From assembly GCA_029881435.1 (NCBI GenBank), contig JAOUMR010000014.1, positions 1-52,703 on the forward strand: a stretch of 52,703 nt of DNA. Reading direction: 5' to 3'. Source of the DNA: Nitrospira sp. (lineage in GTDB: Bacteria; Nitrospirota; Nitrospiria; Nitrospirales; Nitrospiraceae). The notes under the pieces were generated by a model. That model saw nothing but the letters and a program-made list of their open reading frames with translations. It made no database searches and was not told the DNA's origin. Shown piece after piece: positions 1 to 7,851 of this stretch. Every line of letters begins with the position of its first letter. Position 1 is the stretch's first letter. A program made the translations under genes and the position numbers.

Positions 1-322
1 AACGGTCCGATCAATGCGTACGGCAGACGTAGCCAACTTGAAAAATTATAGTGCATAGCGGCTTGAGGTGCTATATAGGATTACGTATGGTATTGAATAC
101 TTGCAAATGACTGATTGGCCATCAATGGCTGGATGGTCAATGACGTTCCAGGAGGCCATTGAATGAGGCCAAAACATTTGTTCGCACCTCAGTGAGGATA
201 CAGAGAGGGGGTGTATGCTGGGATGATCGGATAGTATCTGTCGGGCAACGTGGATTGGGAGGAGAGGACCGGCAAGTGTGGTTTCAAGGGAAGGAATCCC
301 ACAAGACGAAAAGGAGTTCTGT
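1..322. other. Upstream region without a supported gene
   Basis: No convincing gene is visible. An open frame on the minus strand exists but has no ribosome-binding site or recognisable composition. The stretch probably carries the promoter of the lipoprotein gene at 323. I could not pick a -35/-10 pair with confidence. Confidence 0.4.
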
Positions 323-2764: not shown

Positions 2765-2793
2765 TTGACAGGGCTACTGGGAAATGTTATAAA
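2765..2793 (+). promoter_or_regulatory. Strong sigma70-type promoter
   Basis: TTGACA at 2765-2770 and TATAAA at 2788-2793 are separated by exactly 17 bases, close to the sigma70 consensus. The downstream forward run begins with the PilZ-like gene. The -10 box is overlapped by a palindrome, which implies repression. Confidence 0.7.
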
Positions 2794-2811
2794 GTGACCA
2801 GTCAGTCACTT
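2792..2811. promoter_or_regulatory. Palindromic operator, probably TetR-type
   Basis: AAGTGAC (2792-2798) and GTCACTT (2805-2811) are perfect inverted arms around CAGTCA. The inner TGAC...GTCA form is of the kind TetR-family dimers often bind. The site overlaps the end of the -10 box and the expected transcription start. The only TetR gene in the window (5708-6352) ends the gene run driven from here, so autorepression is the simplest model (inference). Confidence 0.6.
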
Positions 2812-2948: not shown

Positions 2949-3344
2949 ATGTCAGGCACCAACCTGGTCCTGACGGAGACCATGGATATGGACCAAGCTT
3001 CAGTGCGTGAGGAAGGTCTTCAAGAGGAAGGAAGGCGACATCCCAAGCTTTTGGTCTGGGATGAGGATGGAAGCTGCCACGAGGGGAGGACGCCGGGTAT
3101 CGGGAACACAACGATGTTTGTTGAATCGACATGGATGGCACCTGTTGGTTCCGAAGTCACCATGAGCGTCGTTCCAAGAGAAGGGGATGCTGTAGGGCAA
3201 GAACTCGTCACGGGAACGGTCGTGTGGCACTGCCCGTTGGGCGACGAATTTAAGAACCAAGCGGGGTTCGGCGTTCTTCTCCAGCGGCACCGACCGCAAG
3301 GGCTTGGTCCGGACATCACGGACGGATCAAAGGAGGCAGCATGA
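2949..3344 (+). CDS. PilZ-like domain protein
   Basis: A 131-residue protein. The frame extends to 2853, but the start at 2949 is favoured by a purine-rich site (GAGAGGG) just upstream and by the poor composition of the extra residues. The second half looks like a PilZ fold: a glycine-containing loop followed by short strands (GSEVTMSVVP, VTGTVVWHCP) and a final strand with FGVLLQ. PilZ domains often bind cyclic-di-GMP, but no clear RxxxR arginine motif is visible, so ligand binding is doubtful. It is the first gene after the promoter at 2765. Its stop overlaps the next ATG in an ATGA junction. Confidence 0.55.
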   Translation: MSGTNLVLTETMDMDQASVREEGLQEEGRRHPKLLVWDEDGSCHEGRTPGIGNTTMFVESTWMAPVGSEVTMSVVPREGDAVGQELVTGTVVWHCPLGDEFKNQAGFGVLLQRHRPQGLGPDITDGSKEAA

Positions 3345-3559
3345 GGACAATGCGCGGACTCGTCAGGCAGGCAGGACGCCATGAGGGGCGAATCGGCCGT
3401 GTGTGGCGCAGAATCTCTCAAGCCGCCGCCCCAATGTTGCCGAAGCGTGGAGTCTCGTCTCAATTGTATCTCACACGATGTGCTCCGGGAATGACGGACA
3501 AGATGGGGAAGAGGAATCACAGTAACACTTCATTACACAGAAAGGGAGGTGCAGCATGA
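3341..3559 (+). CDS. Possible small basic protein, 72 residues
   Basis: No family is recognised. The frame begins in an ATGA overlap with the PilZ-like gene, has GGAGG about 5 bases before its start, and ends in another ATGA overlap with the YtxH-like gene at 3556. The protein is Arg-rich, with no signal peptide, membrane segment or obvious domain. The two tight junctions and good ribosome-binding site favour a real coupled gene. The composition argues for a translated spacer, so confidence is low. Confidence 0.35.
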   Translation: MRTMRGLVRQAGRHEGRIGRVWRRISQAAAPMLPKRGVSSQLYLTRCAPGMTDKMGKRNHSNTSLHRKGGAA

Positions 3560-3852
3560 CAGAGGGACGTTGTGGATTGATGGAAGTAGGACTGTCATTT
3601 TTGGTGGGGTGCGTGGTCGGAGGAACGGCCGCATTGCTCTATGCCCCACAATCGGGGACTCGAACTCGCCGTCGAATTGCGGACTTTGCCGAAGATGTCC
3701 GTGACCGGGCAGGAGACGTCACAGAGCAAGCGACCGAGAAGTTCCAGAAGGCAACAGAACAGGCGACCGAAAAGATCCATAGTGCAAAAGAGCAGGCCTC
3801 CGAGAAGTTCCAGAAGGCCATTGAGCGAGGCCGTAACTTTGTCAACACCTGA
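3556..3852 (+). CDS. YtxH-like membrane-anchored protein with LEA-like repeats
   Basis: A 98-residue protein with GGGAGG just upstream of its ATG. Residues 8-30 form one membrane segment (SFLVGCVVGGTAALLYAP) followed by the PQSGTRTRRR junction typical of YtxH/gas-vesicle-like proteins. The rest is an amphipathic helix built from 11-residue repeats (TEQATEKFQKA, TEQATEKIHSA, KEQASEKFQKA). Such 11-mers resemble group 3 LEA proteins, which protect membranes and proteins during drying. Proteins of this class are stress-associated in other bacteria. It sits in the run leading to a trehalose island, which fits a protective role (inference). Confidence 0.75.
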   Translation: MTEGRCGLMEVGLSFLVGCVVGGTAALLYAPQSGTRTRRRIADFAEDVRDRAGDVTEQATEKFQKATEQATEKIHSAKEQASEKFQKAIERGRNFVNT

Positions 3853-3910: not shown

Positions 3911-4126
3911 ATGAGGTGCGAACGTTGCCAAGGGTGCATGATTCGTGATTCTTTCGTTGATCTGAGAGATGACACAGGACGTGTCCTGTTCGAGGGCTGG
4001 CGCTGTATCAATTGCGGCGAAGTCGTCGACCCCGTGGTGCTGACGCATCGGATTGATGTGCCGGCGAAACCCTATCGAGGGCAAACGAGGGATCGCCGCA
4101 TGTGGGAACGTTTGACGGCTGTGTGA
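3911..4126 (+). CDS. Small zinc-ribbon protein
   Basis: A 71-residue protein with AAGGAGG at 3898-3904. Two cysteine pairs (CERC near the start, CINC at about residue 33) make a plausible zinc ribbon, with an extra cysteine at CQGC. The C-terminus is basic. No catalytic motif is visible. Small proteins of this pattern are usually conserved hypotheticals, and a nucleic-acid or protein-binding role is possible but unsupported. It lies 58 bases after the YtxH-like gene in the same run. Confidence 0.65.
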   Translation: MRCERCQGCMIRDSFVDLRDDTGRVLFEGWRCINCGEVVDPVVLTHRIDVPAKPYRGQTRDRRMWERLTAV

Positions 4127-4234: not shown

Positions 4235-5221
4235 ATGACTCTACCAACGACTCTACTAACCACGAAAAAATCGACAGTACGAGACGAAGAGAATGTCATT
4301 CCTCACCTCTGGTCGATCGTTCTGGCCGGCGGAGAGGGAACGAGATTGGCTCCGATGATCAGAGAGTGGCTCGGAGAGGATCGCCCGAAACAATATTGCA
4401 CCTTCACGGGCACCAGGTCCATGCTTCAACATACCGTGGACCGGGTTGATCGACTCGCTGCGCCCACCCAACGCGTGACTGTCGTCGGTGCGAGCCAGGA
4501 GGAGACGGCCCGCAATCAGTTGGATGACAGAGGAGGATTGCTCGTGGTGCAACCGGCGAACCGTGATACGGCCCCGGGAGTTTTTCTTCCCCTCTCCTAT
4601 GTCCGTGCGGCGGATCCTGACGCCACCGTGGTGATCTACCCATCCGACCACTTTGTCCACCCCGAAACACAATTGGTTGAGGCGATCAGGCACGCCGTCC
4701 GTGCCATCGATTTGCTTGAAGATCGATTGATTCTCGTGGGTATCCAGCCGGATGGATTCGATCTGGATTATGGCTACATTCAGGTGGATCGATATGTCGG
4801 TGGGTACGGAGCCCACTCTCTGTGGCATATCGGACGGTTTGTTGAGAAACCGGAACGGCACATGGTGAGGACCTTCGCGGAAGGACAGGTGCTGTGGAAC
4901 ACCATGATCATTGTGGCGAAGGTCCAAACGCTCTGGAAACTGGGGACGAAAGTGCTGCCATCGATGATGCGCCTGTTTGAAGCGCTCGCGCCAGCCGTCG
5001 GCACGACGAAAGAAGAGCGAGCGCTGCACGGCATCTATCAGACGATGCCGACGAAAAATTTCTCCAGAGATTTTCTCGAGCACGTGTACCACAAGGTCTC
5101 GGCCTTAGATATGACAGACGTGCTCTGGAGTGATTGGGGAAGACCGAAACGGATCGCCCAGAGCCTACGAAGAATTGGGAAGGCCCCGGCGTTTCCAGTT
5201 GAGCTGGTGGGGGTTGCATAA
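4235..5221 (+). CDS. Mannose-1-phosphate guanylyltransferase-like nucleotidyltransferase
   Basis: A 328-residue protein. An upstream in-frame ATG at 4160 exists, but the start at 4235 follows a 9-base G run that serves as the ribosome-binding site. The N-terminal VLAGGEGTRL is the signature of sugar-1-phosphate nucleotidyltransferases, followed by RPKQYCTF and PSDHF, as in GDP-mannose pyrophosphorylases. VVQPANRDTAPG matches the conserved Asn-Arg-(Asp/Gly)-Thr-Ala segment. The enzyme should activate a hexose-1-phosphate, with mannose the best guess and GTP the likely donor. It lacks the C-terminal isomerase domain of bifunctional enzymes. It lies 107 bases upstream of the CBM48 gene. The true sugar and base are not certain. 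Confidence 0.7.
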   Translation: MTLPTTLLTTKKSTVRDEENVIPHLWSIVLAGGEGTRLAPMIREWLGEDRPKQYCTFTGTRSMLQHTVDRVDRLAAPTQRVTVVGASQEETARNQLDDRGGLLVVQPANRDTAPGVFLPLSYVRAADPDATVVIYPSDHFVHPETQLVEAIRHAVRAIDLLEDRLILVGIQPDGFDLDYGYIQVDRYVGGYGAHSLWHIGRFVEKPERHMVRTFAEGQVLWNTMIIVAKVQTLWKLGTKVLPSMMRLFEALAPAVGTTKEERALHGIYQTMPTKNFSRDFLEHVYHKVSALDMTDVLWSDWGRPKRIAQSLRRIGKAPAFPVELVGVA

Positions 5222-5328
5222 TGATTGCCGGATGAAAAGAATGAAGCCGGTCAGCATGTTGTCGCCAGGATCGCGCAGCGACTCGGCAGAGACATCATTC
5301 GCAATTCATGCCTATTAAGGAGGAAGGA

Positions 5329-5688
5329 ATGAAAGAGCCAGTGAAGAAAAAGTCTTCTTCGCCCCGACCGACACGCTCACGGAAGGGACCCAAAAAAGAA
5401 TCGGTCTTATTTGAATATTTTGATCCTTCGGCCCAAGTCGTGGCCTTGGTGGGAGAATTTAATCAGTGGAACTCGCAGGGCAAGCCGATGAAACGAGATG
5501 CCGGTGGCCTCTGGAAGATCAAGGTCTCGTTGGCCCCAGGCACCTACCACTACAAGTTCGTAGTCAACGGGGAGCGATGGGAAGAGGATCCGCTCAACCT
5601 CCACCGAGTCATGAACGAGCATGGCAGCTTCAATTCCATACGCAACGTTGGGATCAATGTCGACGGGAGTGAGAGGCCGACTACCTAG
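5329..5688 (+). CDS. Stand-alone CBM48 (AMPK glycogen-binding type) protein
   Basis: A 119-residue protein. AAGGAGG at 5317-5323 selects the start at 5329 over an ATG at 5308. After a Lys/Ser/Arg-rich N-terminal tail of about 30 residues, the protein is one carbohydrate-binding module 48: VALVGEFNQWN, then GLWKIKVSLAPGTYHYKFVV and the Asp-Pro stretch near EEDPLN. The Trp and Lys residues expected to stack on alpha-glucan are present. There is no catalytic domain, so it probably senses or docks onto glycogen. It stands 19 bases upstream of the TetR gene. Domain identity is clear; its role as a glycogen sensor or adaptor is inference. Confidence 0.85.
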   Translation: MKEPVKKKSSSPRPTRSRKGPKKESVLFEYFDPSAQVVALVGEFNQWNSQGKPMKRDAGGLWKIKVSLAPGTYHYKFVVNGERWEEDPLNLHRVMNEHGSFNSIRNVGINVDGSERPTT

Positions 5689-5707: not shown

Positions 5708-6352
5708 ATGAGTACACTAGCGGAAGGGTCGCTCTCTCGGGTTGAGCGGCGAAAGGCCAGGACTAACAGGCGGTTTTTGGAAGTCTCACGACGGCTGTTT
5801 TCCGAAAAGGGAATCTATTGGGCTAAGATCGAAGACATCACGGAGTTGGCCGACCAGGGTAAGGGGACCTTCTACAAGTATTTTGATTCCAAAGAAGCGA
5901 TCATTTGCGCGTTGCTCAAAGAAGGCTTGGACGAATTGACGTTCCAGACGGAGCAGGCCGTTCAGAAGGTCCCGACAGGACCGAAGACTCTCTCTGCAGC
6001 CATTGAAGCGCGGGTGGACTTTTTCCTGAATTGCCCCGAGTATTTGCTTTTTTTTCACCAGGTCAGGGGCCTGATGCAGCTTCAGGTGGCTGTCGCAAAT
6101 GACTTGCGGGCTATCTACGACGCCCACTTGGACCGGCTTGCAGAACTCATCAAACCAGCCATGAATGGTGTCGATCAGTCTGGGAGCGCACGGGACATCG
6201 CCAGAGCGATGGCAGCCTATACCTCGGGAGTGTTGACCTACGATGTGTTGTTCGAAGGCCAGGAATCCACTGAGCGCAGACGCAACTATTTTGTAGATAT
6301 GCTCGATCGGAGCCTTCAACCGCTGCTGAAGCCCAACAAAGGATCTCGTTGA
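5708..6352 (+). CDS. TetR-family transcriptional regulator
   Basis: A 214-residue protein. The start at 5708 is preferred over an upstream in-frame ATG that overlaps the CBM48 gene; GGGAGGTGAAGGGG precedes it. Residues 12-70 are a typical TetR DNA-binding domain (ARTNRRFLEVSRRLFSEKGI, then GKGTFYKYFDSKEAI). The rest is the variable helical ligand-binding domain. It is the last gene of the forward run starting at the promoter at 2765. A palindromic site overlapping that promoter suggests negative autoregulation, and the next gene downstream is glgC. The ligand is unknown; a sugar metabolite is only a guess. Confidence 0.9.
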   Translation: MSTLAEGSLSRVERRKARTNRRFLEVSRRLFSEKGIYWAKIEDITELADQGKGTFYKYFDSKEAIICALLKEGLDELTFQTEQAVQKVPTGPKTLSAAIEARVDFFLNCPEYLLFFHQVRGLMQLQVAVANDLRAIYDAHLDRLAELIKPAMNGVDQSGSARDIARAMAAYTSGVLTYDVLFEGQESTERRRNYFVDMLDRSLQPLLKPNKGSR

Positions 6353-6585: not shown

Positions 6586-7851
6586 TTGAGCCGCGCAGGC
6601 AACCGGGTGCTGGCGATTATCATGGCCGGAGGAAAAGGCGAACGGCTCATGCCGCTGACGGAATTCCGCAGCAAGCCGGCGGTGCCATTCGGAGGGAAGT
6701 ATCGTATCGTTGACTTTGTCCTCAGCAACTTCTTGAACTCCGACATCATGGCTATGTACGTGCTGGTGCAGTATCGTTCTCAATCGCTGATCGAACATTT
6801 GCGGCGCGCGTGGCGGATCGGTGGGCGGATCAAGCAACAATTTATTACAGTTGTCCCGCCGCAGATGAAGGCTGGTGGCGGCTGGTACGCAGGAACCGCC
6901 GATGCGGTCTTTCACAATCTGAATCTCATTGAGGATTTTTCGCCGGACCTTGTAGCGGTGTTCGGTGCCGACCATATTTACCGGATGGATATCGGGCAGA
7001 TGGTGCAGTTCCATCAGGAACGACGAGCGGATGTGACGGTCGCAGCAAGGCCGGTCCCGCTCCATGCCGCGCGTGGCTTTGGGATCATCGAGACCGACAC
7101 GAATGGTCGTATTGTGGGTTTCGCAGAAAAACCCAAACATCCGAAACCGATGCCCGATGATCGAGAGCATGCCTTCTCATCGATGGGCAATTATATTTTC
7201 GAGACGGATGTCTTGTTGAAAGTGCTGTCCGAAGATGCCAGAAAAGGTGGGTCTCACGACTTTGGTCGCGACGTGATTCCGGCCATCATGAAAAAGAACC
7301 ACGTCGTGGCCTATAATTTCATGCAGAACGTGGTGCCGGGGCTCAAACCCTATGAGGAGCGCGGATATTGGCGGGATGTCGGTACGTTGGAGGCCTACTG
7401 GCAGGCGCATCTCGATATTCTCGGGGAATGTCCGATTTTCGACCTGCGGAATGGAGACTGGCCCATCCTGAGTGACACGTTCGACGGCCCAACCGCGAGC
7501 TTGGCGAAAGCCTATGTCGAGGATTCCATGATCGGGCAGGGGAGTCAGGTTCTCGATGCTGAAATTAGGCGATCGGTCATCGGTCGTAATGTGCGTATCG
7601 AATCCGGCAGCAAGATCGAAGAGTGTATCATTCTCGACGGTTCAATCGTTGGGTCAAAGTCGCATCTGCGACGAGTGGTTGCAGATCGGTTCAACGTGAT
7701 CCCCGCCGGGTCCGAGATGGGATTGGATTCGACACCGAAGCGCAAACGATCTCACGTCTCACGGTCCAACCTGGTCGTGCTACCCAGACAGTTCCGTGGG
7801 ATTCCCCGTGATCGACCAAGGGACACTCAGGTGCAGGAAGGAGCATCATGA
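6586..7851 (+). CDS. glgC: Glucose-1-phosphate adenylyltransferase
   Basis: A 421-residue protein that starts with TTG, supported by GAGGGAGG at 6571-6578. It makes ADP-glucose from ATP and glucose-1-phosphate. Diagnostic stretches are IMAGGKGERLMPLTEFRSKP at the N-terminus, GTADAVFHNL, FGADHIYRMD and the C-terminal left-handed beta-helix repeats (VEDSMIGQGSQV, RRSVIGRNVRI). Length and domain order are normal. It is the first enzyme of the island and supplies the donor used for glycogen synthesis and potentially by TreT. The stop overlaps the start of the next gene by four bases. Confidence 0.95.
   Translation: MSRAGNRVLAIIMAGGKGERLMPLTEFRSKPAVPFGGKYRIVDFVLSNFLNSDIMAMYVLVQYRSQSLIEHLRRAWRIGGRIKQQFITVVPPQMKAGGGWYAGTADAVFHNLNLIEDFSPDLVAVFGADHIYRMDIGQMVQFHQERRADVTVAARPVPLHAARGFGIIETDTNGRIVGFAEKPKHPKPMPDDREHAFSSMGNYIFETDVLLKVLSEDARKGGSHDFGRDVIPAIMKKNHVVAYNFMQNVVPGLKPYEERGYWRDVGTLEAYWQAHLDILGECPIFDLRNGDWPILSDTFDGPTASLAKAYVEDSMIGQGSQVLDAEIRRSVIGRNVRIESGSKIEECIILDGSIVGSKSHLRRVVADRFNVIPAGSEMGLDSTPKRKRSHVSRSNLVVLPRQFRGIPRDRPRDTQVQEGAS

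Follow-up and report, generated by a model that had tools for sequence, protein, structure and literature searches.

Acyl-CoA-responsive repressors of the FadR type use palindromic operators of the TGA...TCA type, and BetI is the TetR-family repressor of choline/glycine-betaine osmoprotection, i.e., of compatible-solute genes. The genus Nitrospira comprises key nitrite oxidisers, the stress regulation of which is little known. Cooperative binding and autoregulation have been described for CprB (PMC4150764). In Pseudomonas aeruginosa, trehalose provides osmotic tolerance and GlgE glucan provides desiccation tolerance, and the signalling behind the up-regulation of the GlgE/TreY operons was left unsettled (PMC8084333), while in N. 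marina trehalose is a predicted osmolyte (PMC8115632). The autorepressed TetR operon is a known type of switch, and what is striking in the locus described here is the constancy of an operator phased at 18 bp, together with a link to compatible solutes that crosses phyla.

The whole stretch of Nitrospira DNA that was analysed (the window) has 52,703 nucleotides. Its positions 2765-2844 very probably form a regulated promoter, that of a six-gene operon which closes with tetR, is repressed by its own product through one operator (O1) and probably two more (O2 and O3), and is released by a ligand, with probable read-through into the genes that follow and a second operator array. On the + strand, the -35 box TTGACA (2765-2770) is separated by 17 bases (2771-2787) from the -10 box TATAAA (2788-2793), and a palindrome at 2792-2811, which consists of AAGTGAC (2792-2798), CAGTCA and GTCACTT (2805-2811), overlaps both the -10 box and the position at which transcription should start. 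All of these elements can be read directly from the DNA, and both the promoter and the palindrome were present as the sequence-only reading had described them. The core of the palindrome, TGACCAGTCAGTCA (2795-2808, + strand), follows the pattern TGACY-N4-RGTCA and is referred to here as operator O1, which the outer arms widen to 2792-2811.

The promoter itself is unusual for the window, where only two sites match TTGACA-(16-18)-TATAAT with one mismatch or fewer, against a mean of 0.2 in shuffled sequences; a promoter scan of the window returned no entry at 2765-2793, because the scan demands a T as the last base of the -10 box. The palindrome by itself is weak evidence, given that nine perfect 7-6-7 palindromes occur in the window and 4.0 in the shuffles, and the fact that palindromes of this size are common there would suit a chance palindrome within a constitutive promoter. 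The 20-mer pattern occurs once in the 3.72-Mb genome. The evidence for the site is rather its conservation, which in the genomes compared goes far beyond chance: the palindrome keeps a fixed position over TetR proteins that are 41-88% identical, and it does so across phyla. The chance palindrome was rejected as refuted by this conservation, and its probability is practically negligible.

An orthologue of the TetR protein was found in 16 of the 79 Nitrospira genomes, with 50-88% identity, a count that includes the genome of the window. The sequence-only reading had proposed a search of related genomes, and in this search the palindrome proved to be kept upstream of the orthologous clusters, both within the genus and at loci beyond it. 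In all 16 TetR-positive genomes, tetR lies in the orthologous operon and TGACY-N4-RGTCA lies just 3' of the -10 box of the promoter, while in the Nitrospira genomes that lack the TetR the operator is absent from that promoter, with the exception of G086. A strict pattern of promoter plus operator was matched by 14 of the 16 TetR-positive genomes versus 2 of the 63 TetR-negative ones (Fisher p ~1e-11), the two missed genomes being those in which TTGACG replaces TTGACA. One of the two TetR-negative matches, G086, is the orthologous operon on a contig that stops right after cbm48, where tetR would begin; the other, G085, is near dnaA and looks like a chance match. In G003, which has an otherwise similar cluster, there is a tetR remnant with the first 44 codons (L035:4092-4231) and a broken manC, and the operator was not found upstream of this cluster, which is consistent with a joint loss.

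The 16 TetR-positive genomes and G086 provided an alignment of 17 cluster promoters, in which the -35 box is TTGACA, TTGACG or TTGACT in 17/17, an AT-rich, -10-like block lies in the equivalent place, and the TGAC and GTCA of O1 are invariant in all 17 whereas the flanks have diverged. The O1 site is also found in other taxa. This pattern bears on the proposal that the inverted repeat acts as RNA, in the form of a 5' leader hairpin or an attenuator, for which the potential pairing of the two 7-base arms could be invoked. However, the expected start at ~2800 falls within the palindrome, so the transcript would be devoid of the 5' arm, and invariant TGAC/GTCA halves with variation elsewhere fit a protein site, not a compensatory stem. 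Given the position of the start and the pattern of invariance, the RNA hairpin was rejected, as a highly improbable reading.

The palindrome is the first of a putative series with a pitch of 18 bp (O1 at 2795, O2 at 2813 and O3 at 2831, all on the + strand), which the sequence-only reading had missed. The candidate operator O2, TGAGCAAAGAGTCG (2813-2826), lies 18 bp 3' of O1 and is invariant in 17/17 promoters at +19 (G) and at +28 to +30 (GTC), while O3, TGACTGTTATGACG (2831-2844), lies 36 bp 3' of O1 and retains its left half site, with the T and the G at +36/+37 kept in 15/17 each. As half sites stand at +19/+28 and +36 in the promoter alignment, the sites recur every 18 bp. The Nitrospira versions of O2 and O3 are both degenerate, whereas second copies at 18 bp are perfect in distant relatives. 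The O1-O2 tandem pattern matches 16 of the 79 Nitrospira genomes, each of which is either TetR-positive or G086, and the reversed control gave no match. Over 395 Nitrospirota genomes, the pattern was found in 13 of the 19 that are TetR-positive versus 3 of the 376 others (p ~2e-17). These three matches in TetR-negative genomes (G035, G050 and G263) look like chance, as the relevant neighbours are absent. In one relative, a second contig carries an extra copy of the operator pair together with the first gene (L250, G022:C100:406-930).

These data also bear on the possibility that the palindrome belongs to a regulator other than this TetR, be it a second TetR or a global factor, with the nearby tetR as a bystander. 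The plain 14-bp TGACY-N4-RGTCA motif occurs nine times in the genome, against 13 in the reversed control, i.e., at background level and with no signal of a wider regulon for this motif in the genome, which would favour a bystander. However, the tandem form occurs in the genome as one exact pair, at O1-O2, and one pair with a single mismatch, at 108-138, both at this locus, and the distribution of the site matches that of this TetR subfamily over genomes, genera and phyla, including cases in which tetR has other genes around it. A different owner of the site is therefore improbable, and the comparison strongly suggests that the TetR protein encoded at 5708-6352 binds the palindrome.

The operon begins with a gene of 131 aa (2949-3344), the product of which has no match to Pfam or NCBIfam families and the orthologue of which heads the operon in most relatives. 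It is followed by genes for a YtxH-domain protein (3556-3852, PF12732), a Cys-rich protein of 71 aa that is kept in the operon across relatives (3911-4126), a sugar-nucleotidyltransferase similar to mannose-1-phosphate guanylyltransferase (4235-5221), a CBM48/AMPK1_CBM protein (5308-5688) and, as the final gene, a TetR-family repressor (5708-6352), the proposed binder of O1-O3. All six are on the + strand, and Pfam matches confirmed the CBM48 gene and the tetR gene with which the run had been described as ending.

The operator is thus located in the promoter of the very operon that contains tetR, the arrangement of an autorepressed operon. TetR homodimers would bind O1 and cover the start point (~2800) as well as the end of the -10 box, and a dimer bound over both should exclude RNA polymerase. 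The operators O2 and O3, in the leader, are probably bound as well, which could strengthen occupancy, and the bound TetR would block RNA polymerase. With tetR as the final gene of the operon, the outcome would be negative feedback, until an intracellular ligand frees the DNA from the repressor and the operon is turned on. The TetR operator and the self-repressed switch of the sequence-only reading are supported by the comparative evidence, given that the site tracks this TetR.

Transcription probably continues into the trehalose/alpha-glucan island, which opens with glgC (6586-7851, + strand), a probable read-through target, and extends to treY (8559), glgE (11961) and a maltokinase-like gene (13988). 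No terminator-like sites were found on the + strand in the interval between tetR and glgC. The gap between these genes is ~40-90 bp in three relatives, N. moscoviensis among them, in which read-through is thus likely; some others have ~0.9-2.9 kb there, which means that read-through is not necessarily a general feature.

The pair with one mismatch forms a second, weaker array, TGACTGATTGGCCA TCAA TGGCTGGATGGTC (108-138, + strand), which is the second-best tandem match in the genome. It is placed upstream of an operon with the genes of a DUF4398 lipoprotein (323-709, + strand) and an OmpA-family envelope protein (782-1903, + strand), both of which are probable second targets, as the array may put this operon under the control of the same TetR. 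Two relatives (G073 and G087) have exact tandem pairs in this position, and the DUF4398-OmpA operon sits within the tetR operon in several relatives. No promoter hexamers are evident at 108-138 in the genome of the window. Sequence near the left end of the window (1-140), including the pair with one mismatch, is found again where contig C69 begins (G000:C69:1-36), probably as a contig-end overlap.

Beyond the genus, in G038, which belongs to another family of the same order, a tetR with 41% identity is found apart from this operon, behind a promoter of its own with the sequence TTGACA-17-TACAAT-TGACTAGCTAGTCA. The site is likewise retained at loci of Nitrospirota MAGs that are unranked or come from other genera; at two of these loci, L146 and L148, no promoter hexamer stands out clearly. 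Among 38 distant relatives with 26-35% identity, from Planctomycetota, Myxococcota, Deltaproteobacteria and others, [TC]GAC-N6-GTC[AG] is found within 200 bp upstream of tetR in 37, and the strict form in 26, versus 1 of 19 control TetRs, which are proteins matched mainly in the DNA-binding domain; the Fisher test of this contrast was run with the slightly low count of 36 of 38. The spacing of 22 pairs of neighbouring sites is 18 bp in 17, 36 bp in three, and 108 and 114 bp in the remaining two. The operator-bearing TetRs group together in the tree, one control row excepted, with weak basal support. The position of the window in the tree is also that of a Nitrospira.

A KamA-family 2,3-aminomutase gene lies directly 3' of tetR in 34 of the 38 relatives and is fused to it in two; in most cases, genes for one or two ATP-grasp ligases and for a GNAT acetyltransferase come next. 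This order (tetR-kamA-ATP-grasp(x1-2)-GNAT) is conserved in Planctomycetota and relatives (L150-L186), some of which also have a histone-deacetylase-like protein. The cluster is probably a pathway of a beta-lysine-derived solute, and by analogy its pairing of KamA with an acetyltransferase is reminiscent of the osmolyte pathway to N-acetyl-beta-lysine. In the fusions (L149:9989-12457 and L152:9995-12466), which have ~820 aa, the TetR is N-terminal to the KamA radical-SAM aminomutase, and a TGAC-N6-GTCA site lies upstream. Both adjoin a TreT-like trehalose synthase, in L152 with TreZ and TreY as further neighbours. In the tree, these two and L157, next to which lies an OmpA-like protein, make up the clade that is sister to the Nitrospira TetRs (support 83/78).

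The TetR protein belongs to the family by its TetR_N helix-turn-helix (PF00440, 42.4 bits vs a cut-off of 24), and its AlphaFold model, with a pLDDT of 88.5, has the all-helical two-domain fold. Alignment of the model to solved TetR-family structures with VIA-align gave Z values of up to 18.6, and the predicted fold is that of a normal TetR repressor, closest to FadR-type proteins. The region of the DNA-reading helix, GKGTFYxYF, is kept between TetRs that are 41% and 88% identical. The named NCBIfam equivalogs FadR, FasR, BetI and AcrR all scored under their cut-offs (best 38.5 bits vs 250). Assignment of a ligand from the fold neighbours was dropped, since FadR, FasR, EthR2, DarR and others fall within ~2 Z units, and the ligand is thus not nameable from the fold. 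The glucan or sugar signal that had been suggested for this switch found no support, as no sugar-binding domain was recognised in the TetR, the closest folds are those of acyl-CoA-responsive proteins of the FadR type, and the gene context favours compatible solutes in general over a glucan in particular. We infer a signal of water or osmotic stress, or of the metabolism of compatible solutes.

Compatible solutes are the common thread of the regulated genes, which suggests a family of water-stress repressors. Tentatively, and with confidence well short of even, the multi-phylum TetR subfamily may be a dedicated water-stress repressor that reads an array of 14-bp palindromes with an 18-bp pitch and governs the synthesis of compatible solutes. 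Its targets would be the beta-lysine-type clusters of Planctomycetota and relatives and, in Nitrospira, the trehalose/alpha-glucan genes along with envelope genes, and the KamA fusion of some Myxococcota and Deltaproteobacteria would couple sensing to an enzyme. A literature search on the operator string found no paper, and no description of this regulator was found in the literature on TetR proteins with Nitrospira trehalose genes or KamA clusters. The locus provides a precise and testable candidate operator for the switch that precedes the GlgE/TreY trehalose-glucan island of Nitrospira, and also for a wider TetR subfamily without an assigned function. Given that the operator is so constant, regulons become predictable even for bacteria that are not in culture. 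A named, fully sequenced strain suited to tests is available in Nitrospira moscoviensis (NZ_CP011801.1).

Compared with the known systems, the locus shares its pathways with the GlgE-pathway and TreY operons of P. aeruginosa. The repressors FadR of Bacillus and its kin are the best structural neighbours (Z 18.6 for FadR of B. halodurans and 18.2 for that of B. subtilis), but identity is ~15%, the 35 bits obtained with the NCBIfam FadR model fall below its cut-off of 200, and FadR targets fatty-acid degradation, whereas the genes here are for trehalose/alpha-glucan, beta-amino-acid and envelope functions. As a TetR repressor tied to compatible-solute genes, BetI is similar in role, yet it acts on other genes in another operon, and its models score weakly here (25 bits vs cut-offs of 118 and 201). 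Finally, QacR and CprB resemble the system predicted here in having more than one TetR dimer per promoter region, but in the QacR-like mode two dimers share one operator, whereas at this locus the dimers would occupy separate 14-bp palindromes at an 18-bp pitch.
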